Below, piece by piece: positions 3-8,576 of a stretch of 35,003 bases of DNA (positions within the stretch are counted from its first letter, which is position 1; the number at the start of each line of letters is the position of its first letter). The notes below the pieces were generated by a model that was given only the letters and a program-made list of their open reading frames with translations, did no database searches and was not told where the DNA came from. The DNA lies in NCBI GenBank assembly GCA_913057165.1, contig CAJXNS010000014.1:1-35003 (forward strand), given 5' to 3'. Origin of the DNA: an uncultured Trueperaceae bacterium. Lineage in GTDB: Bacteria > Deinococcota > Deinococci > Deinococcales > Trueperaceae. Both the position numbers and the translations under genes were made by a program.

Positions 3-455
3 GCCCGCTTGAACCGTCCAGTACCTGCGTTTGAGTTACCTCTCTACGAGCGGTACCACGCCTCGTTCGGCCCGACGTTGGACGTGGGTTCGTACCTTGG
101 TGAGGTCCCCATGATCGTGAACTTCTGGGCGTCGTGGTGTGGTCCTTGTTACGAGGAAGCGCCCGACCTGCAGGCCGCTTGGGAGGATTTTGGCGGGCAG
201 GTGTTGTTCGTTGGGGTGCAAACCCAGGACCGCGGCCGGCAGCAAGAAGGTCGTGACTTTATCGACCAGTTCAATTTGGGTTTCGCCAACGTCATTGACG
301 ACGACAGCAGCCTGTCGATTGAGTACGGGCTGTTCGGTGTGCCGGAAACGTTTTTCATTCGGGCGGACGGCACGCTGGCGTACAAGCATGCCGGGCCGGT
401 CACGTACGAGCTGCTTGAAGAGCAGGTGCTCGCCTTGACGGGAGGCACGCCGTGA
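3..455 (+). CDS. ccmG: Thiol:disulfide oxidoreductase CcmG/DsbE (TlpA/ResA family), 5' end outside window
   Basis: Thioredoxin-fold protein expected to act outside the cytoplasmic membrane, reducing apocytochrome c thiols before heme attachment. The sequence shows the family opening 'PVPAFELP', the redox site FWASWCGPC (CGPC), a 'GVPETFFI' segment carrying the cis-proline of CcmG-like proteins, and a C-terminal helix. The reading frame is open to the left edge and the usual N-terminal membrane anchor is absent, so the gene very probably begins before base 1. A TTG at base 9 is in frame but would give an unanchored protein. The stop overlaps the GTG of ccmH by four bases, and the next two genes belong to the same cytochrome c maturation pathway, which favours CcmG over a generic TlpA. 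Confidence 0.9.
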   Translation, partial: ARLNRPVPAFELPLYERYHASFGPTLDVGSYLGEVPMIVNFWASWCGPCYEEAPDLQAAWEDFGGQVLFVGVQTQDRGRQQEGRDFIDQFNLGFANVIDDDSSLSIEYGLFGVPETFFIRADGTLAYKHAGPVTYELLEEQVLALTGGTP

Positions 456-925
456 AGCGCGCCGTTTTCGGTTGGCTGGCGATCGTCCTGCTGGCGGTAC
501 CGGCGGCGGCATGGGCGCAGGGCGACAGCGGTGGGGTCGTTGAGCTTGAAAGCCGCGTGTTTGAACTTGGCCGCCAATTGCGCTGTCCAACGTGTACGTC
601 CGAATCGGTGGGCGACTCAAGCTCAGCGATCAGCATCGAAATGCGCAACGAGATCCGGGATCAGATTGCGCTTGGCAAGTCCGACGATGAAATCCTGGCG
701 TTCTTTCAGGAACGTTACGGCGATTGGGTCCTGCTAGAACCGCCACGGGAAGGCATTCACCTGTTCGTGTGGATCCTGCCGGTCGTGGGCGTGGTGGCGG
801 GTGCTGCTGGGTTGGCGCTGCTGATGACGCGCTGGCTCGCGAAAGCGCGGGCGCCCTTGGATGACGTCAACGATGAGGACTTAGCGCGGGTCCAGGCGGC
901 CATGAAGTCGGGGCCGGACGCATGA
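452..925 (+). CDS. ccmH: Cytochrome c-type biogenesis protein CcmH (CycL type)
   Basis: A 157-residue membrane-anchored thiol oxidoreductase of System I cytochrome c maturation, which works with CcmG and CcmI to hold apocytochrome c reduced for heme ligation. Residues 1-23 form a signal sequence ending 'AAAWAQ'. The family motif LRCPTC is at about residue 48 and is followed by the conserved helical segment ending 'FFQERYGDWVLLEPP'. One membrane helix lies near residues 105-127. The start is a GTG overlapping the ccmG stop, and the end overlaps the following ATG, both by four bases, so translation is probably coupled. This is the short CcmH form without the CcmI part, which is a separate downstream gene. 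Confidence 0.95.
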   Translation: MKRAVFGWLAIVLLAVPAAAWAQGDSGGVVELESRVFELGRQLRCPTCTSESVGDSSSAISIEMRNEIRDQIALGKSDDEILAFFQERYGDWVLLEPPREGIHLFVWILPVVGVVAGAAGLALLMTRWLAKARAPLDDVNDEDLARVQAAMKSGPDA

Positions 926-2493
926 CGGTCATCATTATCGTCGCGGTGCTGCTGACCGGCCTTTTGGGGTGGTTGGTGCTTCAGCCACTGCTGGACGCCC
1001 GTCAGTTGGACGAACTTCCTGACGAACGCGATCCGGACCTGCTTGATTTAGAAGAGGAGCGCGATGCGCTCTTAAACGCGCTTCGTGAGCTTGATATTCG
1101 CACCGACCTAGCGCACGAACGGCGTGAGGAGTTGCGGGCGCGTTACGAACGCAAGGCCGCGGTGGTGCTGCGCGCCTTAGAGGCACGGCAAGCTGAACTG
1201 GCGGGACGTGAACCGACCGTCAAGCGATCAACCGGTCGCATCCCATGGGGCGCCGTGACGCTCGTGTCGGGTGCGGTGTTGATTGCGGGCACCTTAGGCG
1301 GGTTCGTGCTGCCCCGCGTGGGGCTGGACAGCACGGTCGTCACGGCCTTCGAGGAAGACTTAGCGGCCAGCGAGGCGTTGCGTGATTTGCTGCGTGAGGC
1401 GGAACGTAACCCGAGTGGTGAGGTGTACGCCCAGATCGGCGATATTCACTGGAACGCTGAGGATGGCGGTTCTGCCATGGAGGCGTACGGGACGGCGGTG
1501 AATGAGTACGAGGACGCACCCGCGCGGGCGTACCAGCGCCTGGCCTTACTGACGTTTGAGGATGATCCTGGCCGGGCGCGGGTGCTTTTGGAGCAGGCAC
1601 GCTTGCGTGAGCCGAACAACCCAGCGACGCTTGGCACGCTCGGCGAAATTTACCTTTCTAACGTTGAAGTCTTGGCGGCGCTTGACGCGTACGAAGATTT
1701 GGCGACCGTGATCGATCCAGCGGTCGATCCCGAACTGCGGGGGCGTCTGACGCTGCTTCGGGATCTGGCGCCGTTCGCTCGGTCGCTTGAAGCGGACCCG
1801 AACGCGGACGATCTTGGGGCGGTGGCGTCCCGCCTGTGGGATGCCGAACTGCTCGGGCCTGCCGGTCAGGCGTACTTTCGGCTGTTGAGCGAGTTTGATG
1901 CCAACGACCCAGTGGCGCTCGCGCGGGTGGGCGAGTTGCTGTTCTTAAACGAACGCCTTGACGACGCCGTGGCTTTCCTTGAGCGGTCGCTGCAACAAGC
2001 CGAAGCGCGCGGGGTGACCGCCCCGCAGAACGCGTCGCTGTTTCTGGGTAACGCCCGCTTCTCGGTGGGCGACTACGAGGGTGCCATCACAGCCTGGCAG
2101 GCCCATCTTGACGGTGGCGGGGACACCGGCCGGGTCCCTGAGTTCATTGACGCTGCACGCGGTGTGATGGCGGGTGAGCTAACCCCCAGCGAGGTGGCCC
2201 TGTCCTTCTCGCAACCTGCGGCCTCGGGCGGACCGCCTGGTGTGGCGAGTGAAGCGCAGGTGGTGTCGCAAGGCGAACAGATTTATCAGGCACGTTGCGC
2301 CAGCTGTCACGGTCCGAACGGTGGGGGCGGCGCCGGTAACGTCCTGGCGGGTAACCCATCGGTGGCGCGCGCGGCTTATGTCGAAAACATTATTCGGTAC
2401 GGCCGCGGCACCATGCCTGGCTACCAGGCGTTGCTGGATGACGACGAGATTGCGGCATTGACGTCATGGGTGGTGGACACCTTCGCGCCATGA
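922..2493 (+). CDS. CcmI-like TPR protein with a C-terminal cytochrome c domain
   Basis: A 523-residue membrane protein. It opens with a membrane helix (about 2-22), an acidic coiled segment of CcmI type (about 42-95, 'EEERDALLNALRELD') and a second membrane helix (about 107-131). Repeated helical TPR-like units follow, roughly 150-400. After a short linker a class I cytochrome c domain carries CASCH at 459-463 for covalent heme and a probable axial methionine at 498 in 'GTMPGY'. The first half fits the apocytochrome chaperone CcmI/CycH, and its position after ccmG and ccmH supports that. The fused heme domain is unusual for the family: the protein may be its own substrate or may pass electrons to the Rieske protein encoded next. 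The whole frame is continuous and overlaps both neighbours, so the fusion does not look like an error. Confidence 0.85.
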   Translation: MTVIIIVAVLLTGLLGWLVLQPLLDARQLDELPDERDPDLLDLEEERDALLNALRELDIRTDLAHERREELRARYERKAAVVLRALEARQAELAGREPTVKRSTGRIPWGAVTLVSGAVLIAGTLGGFVLPRVGLDSTVVTAFEEDLAASEALRDLLREAERNPSGEVYAQIGDIHWNAEDGGSAMEAYGTAVNEYEDAPARAYQRLALLTFEDDPGRARVLLEQARLREPNNPATLGTLGEIYLSNVEVLAALDAYEDLATVIDPAVDPELRGRLTLLRDLAPFARSLEADPNADDLGAVASRLWDAELLGPAGQAYFRLLSEFDANDPVALARVGELLFLNERLDDAVAFLERSLQQAEARGVTAPQNASLFLGNARFSVGDYEGAITAWQAHLDGGGDTGRVPEFIDAARGVMAGELTPSEVALSFSQPAASGGPPGVASEAQVVSQGEQIYQARCASCHGPNGGGGAGNVLAGNPSVARAAYVENIIRYGRGTMPGYQALLDDDEIAALTSWVVDTFAP

Positions 2494-3107
2494 GCGGTGA
2501 TGACCCCAACCCTCGCGAGGCTGACCTCAAGGGCAAGCTTGAGGAGGAGGTCCAGCGGAGGGATGTGGTCCGGTGGATTTGGCGTGTGCCTGTCCTACTG
2601 GCGGCGGGCGTTGGCAGCTGGGGAATGTACCAAGCCATCCACACGCACTTTTTTAAGCGCCGGCCGGACCCTACGCCGTCGTTCGTGCCTCATACGCCCG
2701 TGGACGTGGCGCCCGTGTCGAGCTTTGCGTCCGATTGGACGGAACAGCTTTTTGCGTTTGCGGCACAACCCGCCATTGCCATGCGTTTACCTGGGCCGAT
2801 TCCAGGCTCGCTGGACGTTAATGGCGTCCACCTAGCGGCCTTTAGTCGGATTTGCACGCATTTAGGTTGTGCGGTGCAACTCAACCGCGATACCGAAGCG
2901 ATCGCGTTTGCCTTCAACCACCGCACCGACGGTCCGCAGCTGGTGTGTCGCTGCCACCTGAGTGTGTTTGACCCGCAGCAGGCGGGACGTGCGGTGGCAG
3001 GTCCTGCGGTGTACCCACTACAGCGTGTCGAGCTGGCGGTCACGCCGGAGGGGCAGGTGCAAGCCGTGGGTCTTGAAGAGGCGCGTGGGGGTTACGGCGC
3101 GCGTTGA
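2490..3107 (+). CDS. Rieske [2Fe-2S] protein, membrane anchored
   Basis: A 205-residue iron-sulfur protein. Cluster ligands are clear: C122-T-H124 in CTHLGC and C153-R-C155-H156 in CRCH, with C127 and C155 placed to form the disulfide of cytochrome bc/b6f-type Rieske proteins. The usual CPCHGS is CRCHLS here, a modest departure. An uncleaved N-terminal helix (about 31-47) would anchor the domain outside the membrane. The ATG at 2490 was chosen because it overlaps the preceding stop; an in-frame ATG at 2466 lies inside the upstream gene. No cytochrome b gene follows, so the partner is either elsewhere or the cytochrome domain of the gene before. The 3' end overlaps the convergent gene by 16 bases. 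Confidence 0.92.
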   Translation: MSGDDPNPREADLKGKLEEEVQRRDVVRWIWRVPVLLAAGVGSWGMYQAIHTHFFKRRPDPTPSFVPHTPVDVAPVSSFASDWTEQLFAFAAQPAIAMRLPGPIPGSLDVNGVHLAAFSRICTHLGCAVQLNRDTEAIAFAFNHRTDGPQLVCRCHLSVFDPQQAGRAVAGPAVYPLQRVELAVTPEGQVQAVGLEEARGGYGAR

Positions 3108-3897: not shown

Positions 3898-6564
3898 ATG
3901 CCGCATACGTCGTCCAACACGCCGTCTACCCCGCCACAATTTAGGGCGATCGGCCCAGCGCAACTCTGGGGGCCAGACGGCCCAATCGAGAAGTTGCGGT
4001 ACGCCAAAGCCATCCCCTTACTGCTACTCCTGACGGTTGAAGAACCACCCCTGTCACGTGAACGCGCCATGACGCTGCTCTGGCCCGAGAAAGAACTCAG
4101 CGCCCAACGCAACAACCTGCGCGTGCTCCTATCCCACCTCAGGAACACCCTGCACATCCCCATCGAAAGCGACCGCACCCATTTATGGCTCGCTGACCGC
4201 TACCTTCAACAGACCGACTTTGCACGGCACCGCGATTGGAGCCAAACCGACCCACCGATCGGTCGGCCCCCCATCGCCCCCCACGAGTCATGGACGCTTG
4301 CCGACGGGCTTGCACTGAACGACGCGGCGGACTTCAACACCTGGCTCGAACAAGAACGTGAACGCTTCGGCGAACAGGTCGTCCGCGCGCACAAACGTGC
4401 TTCTGAGGGCGCCCTCAACGATCGGCAGCCAGAGGTGGCCATCGACCTGCTCGCCGGCGTCGTCAGCGCTGCCCCATGGGACCTTGAGACCCACGAGCGC
4501 CTCATCGACCTGTTGGTGGCCCTCAACCGCCACCAGGACGCCCGCATGGCCTACGAGCGCTACGCCGCCGACGCCAAACGTTTCGTTGACGAACCCCCAT
4601 CCGAACGCGTCACACGCCTCATTGAACGCCTGGCCAACGTTGAGCAGCAAGACACCACGCTTGGGCAAACGCAAGCGTTGCCTTTGTTCGGACGCGAGCA
4701 GGAACTTTGGCGTGCCACCAACGCCCTCGAAGACACCGCAACGCGCTTGGTATCGATTTCTGGCCCGCCCGGCGCTGGGTCATCGCGCGTGGCGATGGAG
4801 GCCTACCAATCGACCGTGACACGCCTTGGCGTCCTGTCCGCCAGAGCCTCGCTGCGCGGTATTGGTGACCCTGAGACGGCCTGGTCGATCGTGGAACGCG
4901 AACTCAACCGGGGAGCAGCGACCCAGGCGGCAACCACGCTCGATGAACAGCATCCCCTTGAACGCATTTCGGCCAGCCTTGCAGGCGGCGCAACGCTGCT
5001 GTGGCTGGACGACGTCGAGCCCGCCTTGCAGCAAGACCTTGAACGCGGTGTGGCCCGCCTCCTGAAAGAGCAGCCCGAATTGACTGTCCTCGCAAGCGGC
5101 ACCGCCCCGTGGCGGCATCCAAGCGGCATTCACGTGCGCTTGGGGGGCCTGCAGACCGCGGACGATGGAGACCACGTCACACCGCCCGCACTCGCGTTGC
5201 TGCAAGCCTCCATCGAACGGCACGGCGGCAACGCCACCTCGGGCGTCAAACGCCTACGCACGCTGGCGGATCGACTCGAAGGCAACCCCGCCGCCTTGGC
5301 ACTGGCCGGCTTTCAAATTGCCGAGTTTGGCCTTGATGGTTTGGAACGGTTTGGTGACAACCTAGCGGCCGGCCTGACGGCGAACAGCCGCTTTTTGGAT
5401 GCGCACCACCAGTCCTTTGAAGCGATCGTGCGGCCGCGTCTGGAAGGGCTTGATCCGGTCCACAACGACCTGATGGCGGTCATGGCTTCAGCGCAAGGCG
5501 ACATCACCGCTGAGGACTTGAGGGCCATCTTGAACGTCACCTACGAGGAATGTTTGACGCGACTGAAGTGGCTTGAGGACCGCAACCTTGTGGCCTCAAG
5601 CCTGGATGCGCGTGAACGCACGCGGTACCACGCCGCGTCCGGGGTGCGCTGGTGGATTCTGCAGCGGTTGCATGCAAACGGCCAGCGCGACGAGGTGGAC
5701 GAACGCATGCTGTCCTGGGTGAGCCAGAAGATTCACCCGTTGGCGCGGGCGCACGGTACCGAGGAGCGTGGCCGCCTCAAGGAGTGGGTGCGCGACCGGC
5801 AGCGTTTCCTCTCGGGTTTGATCGACCGAACCATGCAGACGCATCCGACCGCCAGCCTGACGTTGGCTGCGGACTTGTGGCGCCCACGCGCCCAGCTGGG
5901 CGATGTGGAGGGTGCTTTAGACCAACTTGAGCGCGGTTTGGCGTCGGCAGCGGAGAACCTGAGCGCCACGGTGCGCTCAGACGTGCTCAACGCGATCGGG
6001 GCGTGCCGACTGATGCTCGGACAACCGGAGTTGGCCGAACCACCGTTCGCCGAGTCGTTGGAGTTGCGCTTAGCGCTTGAGGACACCGAACGTATCGCGG
6101 CAGCGCAACTCAACCTGGCCACCATTGAGGCACAAACCGACCGTGTCGATGACGCGGTCGCGCGACTGCATGAAGCCCAAGATCTTGCGGCTGTGGACGA
6201 CCACCGTTGGCTTGAAGGGGCAGCCACGCTCCATCTCGCCAACCTCGCGTCCCATGAGCATGTCGACGAAAAACGTGCGTACCAACAAAAAGCGGCCCGG
6301 CTGCTTCGCGAAACCGGCGACCTGGATGGCGAGATTGGCGCGATGCTGGGATGGTTGACGGTGGCCACGGAAACGGAAAGCACCCAGGCGTGGGAGTACG
6401 TCACCCGCATCGGTTCGCTCGTGGGCGGTCACGGCAGTTTGCTGGACGCCCGCGGTCTGCAAACACCCATCTTCGCCACCGCCGATGCGCTGCGGTTGGC
6501 GGGGCTTGAACCGTTGGCTGACCGCCTCGAATCGTCCCTCGAGGCATTGCAAGAGCCGCTCTAA
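3898..6564 (+). CDS. BTAD/SARP-type transcriptional regulator with NTPase-like and TPR regions
   Basis: An 888-residue regulator. Residues about 15-105 resemble an OmpR-like winged helix of SARP proteins ('MTLLWPEKELSAQRNNLRVL'), and 130-248 form the bacterial transcriptional activation domain ending 'AYERYAADAKRFVDEPPSE'. Next is an NTPase-like region with GPPGAGSS at 289-296 and a Walker B-like 'TLLWLDDVE' at about 366-374. The remainder, from about 640, is helical repeats of TPR type. The P-loop lacks the canonical lysine (GxxGxGKS reads GPPGAGSS), so nucleotide binding may be lost or altered. Regulators of this architecture usually act as large signal-integrating activators. Target genes cannot be read from the sequence; the divergent YczE-type gene is the nearest candidate. 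The ATG fits a leaderless start. Confidence 0.88.
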   Translation: MPHTSSNTPSTPPQFRAIGPAQLWGPDGPIEKLRYAKAIPLLLLLTVEEPPLSRERAMTLLWPEKELSAQRNNLRVLLSHLRNTLHIPIESDRTHLWLADRYLQQTDFARHRDWSQTDPPIGRPPIAPHESWTLADGLALNDAADFNTWLEQERERFGEQVVRAHKRASEGALNDRQPEVAIDLLAGVVSAAPWDLETHERLIDLLVALNRHQDARMAYERYAADAKRFVDEPPSERVTRLIERLANVEQQDTTLGQTQALPLFGREQELWRATNALEDTATRLVSISGPPGAGSSRVAMEAYQSTVTRLGVLSARASLRGIGDPETAWSIVERELNRGAATQAATTLDEQHPLERISASLAGGATLLWLDDVEPALQQDLERGVARLLKEQPELTVLASGTAPWRHPSGIHVRLGGLQTADDGDHVTPPALALLQASIERHGGNATSGVKRLRTLADRLEGNPAALALAGFQIAEFGLDGLERFGDNLAAGLTANSRFLDAHHQSFEAIVRPRLEGLDPVHNDLMAVMASAQGDITAEDLRAILNVTYEECLTRLKWLEDRNLVASSLDARERTRYHAASGVRWWILQRLHANGQRDEVDERMLSWVSQKIHPLARAHGTEERGRLKEWVRDRQRFLSGLIDRTMQTHPTASLTLAADLWRPRAQLGDVEGALDQLERGLASAAENLSATVRSDVLNAIGACRLMLGQPELAEPPFAESLELRLALEDTERIAAAQLNLATIEAQTDRVDDAVARLHEAQDLAAVDDHRWLEGAATLHLANLASHEHVDEKRAYQQKAARLLRETGDLDGEIGAMLGWLTVATETESTQAWEYVTRIGSLVGGHGSLLDARGLQTPIFATADALRLAGLEPLADRLESSLEALQEPL

Positions 6565-7034: not shown

Positions 7035-7486
7035 AGACCATGCGCTGGCGCCCGCTGCACTCTCCTGCACTGCGCTTCGTGTTCGGTGCCGCAGGGTCTT
7101 GGATCGCCACCGATTTTGTGCTCTACCAGTTCGGTTGGGCCGCCGCTTGGCTGCCGCTGCTTGTGGGCGCGGCTGCGACCGTCCGGATGACCGGCGAGGC
7201 GGTGATGGCCCGCCGCAAGGGTCGCCTGGCGGCTGAGCGCCAGGAGATGCTGCGGGCAGAAGAGCGACGCTTGCGGCCTCTGGACCGTCCCACCGGCGTG
7301 GATGTCGTCCGGTTGCACACCCGCTCGGCCCCAAAACCCGCATCGCCTGTCCGCCCCACGTTGGGCGACCAGCGCGGCAAACCGGTAGGCTACGCGGGTG
7401 CCGTCAAGGGGCGTCAGAGCCCCGTGAGCCCTAAGCCTGACCTTGAAAAGGAGTTCTCGAATGAACCCACTCGCACGTCTTCCTGA
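7031..7486 (+). CDS. Small membrane protein of unknown function
   Basis: A 151-residue protein not recognised as a named family. Two hydrophobic stretches (about 15-33 and 37-54) are separated by a short turn, followed by a basic, arginine- and glutamate-rich helix (about 57-85) and a proline-rich, probably disordered tail. The topology suggests a hairpin in the membrane with a cytoplasmic tail. Its ATG overlaps the stop of the RusA-like gene, so the two are probably translated together. Its 3' end runs 26 bases into the transaldolase gene and its tail spans the presumed transaldolase promoter and leader, so the true functional C-terminus is uncertain. Confidence 0.6.
   Translation: MKTMRWRPLHSPALRFVFGAAGSWIATDFVLYQFGWAAAWLPLLVGAAATVRMTGEAVMARRKGRLAAERQEMLRAEERRLRPLDRPTGVDVVRLHTRSAPKPASPVRPTLGDQRGKPVGYAGAVKGRQSPVSPKPDLEKEFSNEPTRTSS
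7361..7391 (+). promoter_or_regulatory. Possible promoter for transaldolase
   Basis: TTGGGC (7361-7366) and TAGGCT (7386-7391) are separated by 19 bases. They would start a transcript near 7398 with a leader of about 60 bases containing a small hairpin, GGGGC (7408-7412) with GCCCC (7419-7423). The boxes are imperfect and lie inside the preceding gene. Confidence 0.25.
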
Positions 7487-8576
7487 GCTCGGCCAATCGG
7501 TCTACGTGGATGAAATCCGTCGTTCCTGGTTGGAGGACGGCACGCTTGAACGGTTCGTGTCCGAAGATGCGGTTCGCGGCGTCACAAGCAACCCTGCCAT
7601 TTTTGAGAAGTCCATCGCCCAAACGGCGGACTACCAAAGCGCGATTGCCGCACTGGCAGCCGCTGGGCACACGGTGGACGAAATTTATGAAACGTTGGTG
7701 GTGGAGGACATCGCACGCGCTGCGGATGTCTTCCGGCCGCAGTTTGATGCGTCGGACGGTCGCTACGGCTGGGTGTCCCTCGAGGTCAGCCCTAAGCTCG
7801 CGCACGATACAGACGGCACAGTTGAGGAAGCCCGGCGCCTGTTCGCAAAGGTTGACCGGCCCAACGTGTTCATCAAGGTGCCCGGGACCGCTGCTGGCGT
7901 GCCAGCCATCGCGCAGTTGATTGAACTTGGCATTCCGGTGAACGTGACGTTGTTGTTCGGCTTAGGCCGTTATATCGAGGTGCACCAGGCGTACATGGAG
8001 GCCCTTAAGCGCCGCGTGGATGCGGGCAAGGACGCCAACGTCGCCTCGGTCGCGTCGTTTTTCTTAAGCCGCATTGACGTGGCGATCGACCCGCAACTGG
8101 ACGCCATCGCGGCTGCGGGTGGCGCTGAGGCGAACGATGCCAACGCCCTTAAAGGTCGGATTGCGGTGGATAACGCCAAGGTTGCCTACGCGGACTACCT
8201 TGAGCGGATCGCCACCCCTGAATGGCAGGCGCTGACGGCGCAAGGGGCAAGGCCGCAACGCCTTCTTTGGGCGTCAACCGGCACGAAAAACCCTGATTAC
8301 GTCGACACCATGTACGTCGAGCCGCTCATCGGCCCTGACACGGTCAACACGATGCCTGTGGGGACGCTGGAGGCGTACCGGGATCATGGTGAACCGGCGG
8401 ACCGCATTACCGCTGGGCTGAGCGACGCCCGTGAGCGGCTGGCAAAGCTGGCAGCCCTCGGGATTGATCTGGACGCCGTGACGGCGCAACTGGAGGCCGA
8501 AGGGGTCGACAAGTTCGTCACCCCCTTTGAGTCGTTGATGGAGACGCTACAAAAGGCGGTCGCCGAGGCGCGTTAA
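7461..8576 (+). CDS. tal: Transaldolase
   Basis: Enzyme of the non-oxidative pentose phosphate pathway that moves a dihydroxyacetone unit from sedoheptulose 7-phosphate to glyceraldehyde 3-phosphate. The 371-residue length and the N-terminus ('GVTSNPAIFEKSI') fit the longer bacterial class found in actinobacteria and relatives. The Schiff-base lysine is K139 in 'NVFIKVPGT', and 'LWASTGTKNP' supplies the phosphate-binding end. The ATG at 7461 follows AAGGAG at a proper distance; an upstream in-frame TTG at 7443 would place this ribosome binding site inside the protein and was rejected. The stop shares bases with the stop of the convergent SURF1 gene in TTAA. Confidence 0.97.
   Translation: MNPLARLPELGQSVYVDEIRRSWLEDGTLERFVSEDAVRGVTSNPAIFEKSIAQTADYQSAIAALAAAGHTVDEIYETLVVEDIARAADVFRPQFDASDGRYGWVSLEVSPKLAHDTDGTVEEARRLFAKVDRPNVFIKVPGTAAGVPAIAQLIELGIPVNVTLLFGLGRYIEVHQAYMEALKRRVDAGKDANVASVASFFLSRIDVAIDPQLDAIAAAGGAEANDANALKGRIAVDNAKVAYADYLERIATPEWQALTAQGARPQRLLWASTGTKNPDYVDTMYVEPLIGPDTVNTMPVGTLEAYRDHGEPADRITAGLSDARERLAKLAALGIDLDAVTAQLEAEGVDKFVTPFESLMETLQKAVAEAR

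Follow-up and report, generated by a model that had tools for sequence, protein, structure and literature searches.

The cytochrome c maturation (Ccm) operon of an uncultured Trueperaceae bacterium (Deinococcota) encodes a CcmI-type assembly factor that ends in a complete class I cytochrome c domain. The gene lies at 922-2493 in positions 1 to 35,003 of contig CAJXNS010000014.1 (assembly GCA_913057165.1), the whole stretch of 35,003 nucleotides being termed the window here. Directly behind it stands the gene of a membrane-anchored Rieske [2Fe-2S] protein. Judged from gene content and phylogeny, the fusion is phylum-wide and ancestral, going back to the ancestor shared by the Deinococcota families sampled. 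As to function, the reading we favour is a tentative one, held at rather less than an even chance: the CcmI-tethered cytochrome and the Rieske protein may serve the System I heme-ligation complex as an ancestral arm for electron transfer, acting as a one-electron relay by CcmF and CcmH. Searches of open-access full text, with subscription journals outside their coverage, turned up no account of a CcmI-cytochrome c fusion, and novelty is claimed provisionally.

The fusion protein

The domains of the fusion protein are listed in table 1. The cytochrome part is matched by the Pfam profiles Cytochrome_CBB3 (PF13442; residues 448-517, E=1.4e-16) and Cytochrom_C (E=6e-8). Its heme-binding CASCH motif occupies residues 459-463 (2296-2310), and the axial Met498, within the triplet TMP, is encoded at 2413-2415. 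Identification of the remainder as CcmI relies on several features. The gene has its place in the ccm operon after ccmH, and the protein begins with two N-terminal helices and a charged loop, followed by a tetratricopeptide repeat (TPR) region. The loop is the most conserved CcmI-type segment (LEEERDALLNALRELDxRTDL...RARYERKAA). The CcmI-type profile TPR_CcmH_CycH (PF23914) matches with E=1e-5 and 25.9 bits, which is below its curated cut-off of 42, and several further TPR matches are weak.

Structure prediction agrees with this division. An AlphaFold2 model of the whole protein, built with 25 family rows, has a mean predicted local distance difference test score (pLDDT) of 88 and a predicted template modelling score (pTM) of 0.60. 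It contains the two N-terminal helices, a TPR solenoid at 144-430 and the cytochrome domain at 444-521. The linker between the latter two (435-442) has a pLDDT below 50, and the mutual placement of the parts is uncertain. Because a Foldseek search with the whole model listed TPR proteins only, the cytochrome domain was modelled separately. This model reached a pLDDT of 94, and its best matches in the PDB were cytochromes cd1, c6, cL and c553, with TM-scores normalised by query of about 0.64-0.83. A CcmI-type protein with a complete class I cytochrome c, encoded beside a Rieske gene, was what the initial annotation had read from the sequence; profile matches, heme ligands, predicted fold and operon position now agree in confirming it.

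Table 1. Features of the ccm locus at the start of the window.
Feature	Position	Strand	Basis
CcmG/DsbE-type thioredoxin, 5' end cut by contig start	9..455	+	dsbE TIGR00385, 5.7e-20; WASWCGPC motif
CcmH, thiol-redox subunit, CPTC motif	452..925	+	PF03918, 6.3e-31
CcmI-cytochrome c fusion gene	922..2493	+	single open reading frame, 523 aa, no internal stop
First membrane helix, residues about 2-24	922..999	+	hydropathy peak near 1-26; AlphaFold2 model helix 2-24
Charged loop, predicted cytoplasmic	1000..1245	+	invariant alignment columns; membrane side inferred from CcmI topology (PMC3884852)
Second membrane helix, residues about 107-131	1240..1314	+	hydropathy peak 107-131; model helix 109-124
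TPR superhelix, residues about 144-430	1351..2211	+	Pfam, alignment, AlphaFold2, Foldseek
Class I cytochrome c domain, residues 444-521	2251..2484	+	Pfam, alignment, model, Foldseek
Membrane-anchored Rieske [2Fe-2S] protein	2490..3107	+	PF00355; ATG overlapping fusion TGA

Distribution, conservation and ancestry

Among 39 Trueperaceae genomes, the cytochrome domain is present in 33 of the 35 complete ccmI genes. The remaining two belong to a single genus, Truepera (G036 and G037). Three more genes are cut by contig ends, two of them seen directly and one judged from its match, and no ccmI was found in one genome of the family (G027). A profile of the CcmI part was used to search four other Deinococcota families. 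The gene was located in all four, with a CXXCH motif near the end of every copy read, and in 67 of 68 genes one frame continues from the CcmI part into the cytochrome part. The exception is a Thermus-like genome (G098; the label, like Meiothermus-like below, is our inference), where the frame changes at about 1950-2000 of locus L128, at AAAAAAGGGG, an A6G4 run. An indel is the most likely cause of this split; the A6G at the break is also a slippery sequence. Across the phylum, three further genomes gave weak cytochrome matches only and one gave none, most of these being incomplete. Outside it, a coarse test that scored three candidates per genome found no match at 1e-26 in 279 genomes from other phyla.

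An assembly or frame artefact is ruled out by the same single frame in about 100 genomes. Since no intact relative has a stop between the two parts, the fusion is due neither to chance nor to assembly; a pair of separate genes, one of the two findings that would have spoken against the initial annotation, does not occur in close genomes, and the other, a predicted fold unlike that of a cytochrome, did not come up either. The survey of Deinococcota that the annotation had called for thus extends the fusion well beyond what was supposed.

The heme-binding and ligand positions are strictly maintained. C459, C462, H463, M498 and P499 are invariant across 37 cytochrome domains from five families, as are L475 and G494, at identities of about 21-59% to the window's copy, and the cytochrome holds many of the invariant columns of the phylum alignment. 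Neutral tethering after an accidental fusion, with no selected function, would accommodate the missing domain in the two Truepera genomes. Invariant heme ligands over a long divergence and retention in nearly all genera make it highly improbable.

In the CcmI tree, the Truepera pair falls within or at the base of Trueperaceae. Because it is placed there and all other families carry the fusion, a single loss of the domain in this pair is the simplest account. The cytochrome tree is weakly resolved and matches the CcmI tree at family level. In the phylum alignment, the TPR part of Trueperaceae is larger by roughly 140 residues than that of the other families. The two Truepera proteins (loci L035 and L032) have a Pro/Ala/Thr-rich tail where their relatives have the cytochrome domain.

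A Rieske partner outside the bc1 complex

The second conserved element of the locus is the Rieske gene, present in 107 of 111 genomes. It lies directly downstream of the fusion wherever contigs allow, except in two genera (g24 and g26). The ligand and disulfide residues C122, H124, C127, C153, C155 and H156 are invariant in 28 aligned rows. In the window, the fusion gene overlaps both of its neighbours: its start codon shares bases with the stop of ccmH, and its TGA with the ATG of the Rieske gene at 2490. From the latter overlap, translational coupling of fusion and Rieske protein is proposed. The closest solved relative is the arsenite oxidase small subunit AioB (8cgs, E=4.8e-10), and the Rieske protein of the Thermus bc complex is distant (1nyk, E=0.007). 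No AioA-type gene was noticed beside the Rieske gene in the ccm loci read, and the arsenite oxidase idea was not pursued further.

A Rieske protein would ordinarily be sought in a bc complex. Cytochrome b (PF00033) is present in Thermus- and Meiothermus-like genomes, and no match was obtained in 17 of 20 Trueperaceae genomes, including the window's own (G000) and two single-contig genomes. All 17 retain the Rieske protein. The window's genome encodes an alternative complex III operon (ActD PF11821, 7.5e-66) together with a caa3-type oxidase. Since the protein is kept without cytochrome b and the respiratory chain uses alternative complex III, its assignment as a bc complex subunit is ruled out for this genome. 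The sole other Rieske protein encoded there is of ferredoxin type, beside a gene read as suf. The Rieske gene alone could wrongly prompt annotation of a bc1 complex in Trueperaceae, and counting such genes as evidence of bc1 may mislead.

The same respiratory inventory bears on the main rival to a role in maturation. The fused domain could be an ordinary respiratory carrier for which CcmI is merely the membrane anchor, handing the caa3 oxidase electrons that it receives from alternative complex III or the Rieske protein. The nearest profiles of the domain are indeed those of electron-transfer cytochromes, namely CcoP, QcrC and cytochrome c6. In the window's genome, the remaining cytochromes that were examined lie in the alternative complex III and caa3 loci, where their domains are joined to larger or membrane proteins, a pattern into which an anchored carrier would fit; moreover, ccm stays intact after the loss of the domain in Truepera. 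Left unexplained is why one assembly factor should serve as the anchor across a whole phylum, and why fusion and Rieske gene stand at the end of the ccm operon even in genomes that have a bc complex and cytochrome b. We regard an anchored carrier as doubtful; the loss in Truepera and the kinship to CcoP and c6 keep it open. One gene of the caa3 oxidase cluster joins a COX4_pro membrane domain to a cytochrome c domain (L103:6087-7121, contig C2 of G000), a further cytochrome fusion of unusual kind.

A possible electron-transfer arm of the Ccm machine

CcmI binds apocytochrome and joins CcmF and CcmH in a complex (PMC3884852). Attachment requires both heme and thiols in the reduced state, and what reduces the CcmF heme is stated to be unknown (PMC10663686, PMC10746174). 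Because of this need for reduction and the missing reductant, the cytochrome and its Rieske partner are best read as a one-electron relay of the Ccm machine. The points counted for this are the fold, the invariant ligands, the phylum-wide fusion, the Rieske protein kept without cytochrome b, the family-level agreement of the trees and the situation in G027, which alone among the Trueperaceae genomes yielded no CcmF and in which CcmI and this Rieske protein are also missing. From the structure, conservation and gene context shown above we infer a flow of electrons, whose direction the proposal leaves free. The proposed mechanism is as follows. (i) The fusion would be the CcmI subunit of a CcmFHI complex, with a monoheme cytochrome c covalently tethered at its C-terminus, presumably on the periplasmic side. 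(ii) The tethered cytochrome would itself be made by the Ccm system, which would attach its heme. (iii) Together, the Rieske cluster and tethered heme would make up a short one-electron relay positioned beside CcmF and CcmH, presumably in contact with CcmF. (iv) Electrons would move between this relay and the CcmF heme, or the quinol feeding that heme, and between the relay and the respiratory chain. (v) In this way, the relay would control the redox state of the heme while it is being attached.

Several observations weigh against such a relay. The Truepera pair lacks the cytochrome domain and keeps the Rieske protein (and, in G036, also ccmF); therefore the pathway in these genomes can do without the domain. 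The Rieske gene of genera g24 and g26 lies away from ccmI, beside tyrS. In Thermus-like genomes tyrS also adjoins the Rieske gene, downstream of ccm, and because this adjacency is common to both, it was probably ccm that moved away from the Rieske gene in g24 and g26; these surroundings offered no clue to function. Joint absence of CcmF, CcmI and Rieske protein is a single case. Finally, Met-ligated cytochromes and Rieske clusters are usually found at positive potentials. The potential of the CcmF heme is -147 mV (PMC10663686). Set against this value, the usual positive potentials make the relay an unlikely source of electrons for the CcmF heme and more easily a sink, which suggests that the tethered heme and Rieske cluster accept electrons from the Ccm machine.

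A further proposal gives the arm a defined circuit. The dedicated Rieske protein and CcmI-cytochrome may work with CcmF as a minimal quinol-to-cytochrome circuit that couples heme reduction to the respiratory chain; for example, of the two electrons of menaquinol, the first would reduce the CcmF heme and the relay would take the second. This we consider rather unlikely. If true, it would be a partial answer to where the CcmF heme gets its electrons. How heme and apocytochrome stay reduced during attachment is an open question in the field, and a 2023 review gives the reductant of the CcmF heme as unknown (PMC10663686). The crystallised CcmF comes from Thermus thermophilus (PMC10663686, PMC10746174), and in the Thermaceae-like genomes examined CcmI is likewise a cytochrome, beside a Rieske protein of non-bc1 type. 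Should the pair belong to the machine, models drawn from T. thermophilus CcmF miss two redox subunits, a prediction directly testable in that organism.

The initial annotation had suggested self-maturation, a role in sensing heme, or an electron path linked to the thiol chemistry of CcmG and CcmH. None of these was established, while the fusion and its Rieske neighbour on which they were built stand. For the first two, the cytochrome domain would act as an internal substrate or a reporter of activity, filling or freeing the TPR groove according to whether it is in the apo or holo state and thereby tuning the heme-ligation complex. The C-terminal helix of apocytochromes is bound by the TPR domains of CcmI (PMC3884852), and in the model such a helix is tethered in cis. 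Docking in the groove is unsupported by that model, given its pTM and the low pLDDT of the linker. The conserved Rieske partner is left unaccounted for, and the fully conserved Met498, Pro499 and Gly494 indicate a working redox centre, beyond mere heme attachment. A reporter is thus unlikely. For the thiol branch, the cytochrome would pass electrons to or from CcmG, CcmH or apocytochrome thiols, and the genes of both proteins are indeed neighbours. CcmI next to CcmG and CcmH is common in System I operons, which counts against reading this proximity as special. What sets this phylum apart is the Rieske protein, which carries single electrons and is not suited to exchange between thiols and disulfides; its conserved co-encoding favours one-electron transfer over thiol exchange, and service of the thiol branch appears quite improbable.

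The ccm operon and neighbouring genes

The operon has the order ccdA-ccmABCEFGH-ccmI/cyt c-Rieske and is split over two contigs of the window's genome. Its first half (ccdA, ccmA, ccmB, ccmC, ccmE, ccmF and the start of ccmG) is on contig C47; names other than ccmF, ccmG and ccmH were assigned by reading the sequences. A longer copy of ccmG at the end of C47 holds the true start of the window's truncated gene. Positions 1-450 of the window and the end of C47 have this ccmG sequence in common; the mismatches between the two point to strain variants in a metagenome-assembled genome. The order ccdA ... ccmF-ccmG-ccmH-ccmI/cyt-Rieske is seen again in loci of other families.

Shortly downstream of the Rieske gene lies a transaldolase-like gene (7443-8576), as in several other Trueperaceae (L008, L011 and L024). 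An 888-aa protein encoded at 3898-6564 resembles, by the look of its sequence, a large SARP/BTAD-type transcription regulator.

Comparison with known systems

CcmI (CycH) of the Rhodobacter capsulatus and Pseudomonas aeruginosa System I is like the fusion in its two N-terminal helices, cytoplasmic loop, periplasmic TPR domain and gene within a ccm operon. At its end, the P. aeruginosa protein is described as having a disordered linker and a region of alpha/beta type (PMC3884852), whereas the protein described here ends in cytochrome c. CcmH of Escherichia coli, a CcmH-CcmI fusion, is also a CcmI fusion within the Ccm machine, but its partner is the thiol-redox CcmH (PMC3601427). A fusion of that type is ruled out here, ccmH being a separate gene. 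Among solved structures, AioB and other single-helix Rieske proteins are the nearest relatives of the downstream Rieske protein. Class I cytochromes of the c6, CcoP and QcrC type have the CXXCH motif, distal Met and fold in common with the fused domain. Such cytochromes occur as domains of oxidases or bc1 or as soluble carriers, and none of those listed is joined to a maturation factor.
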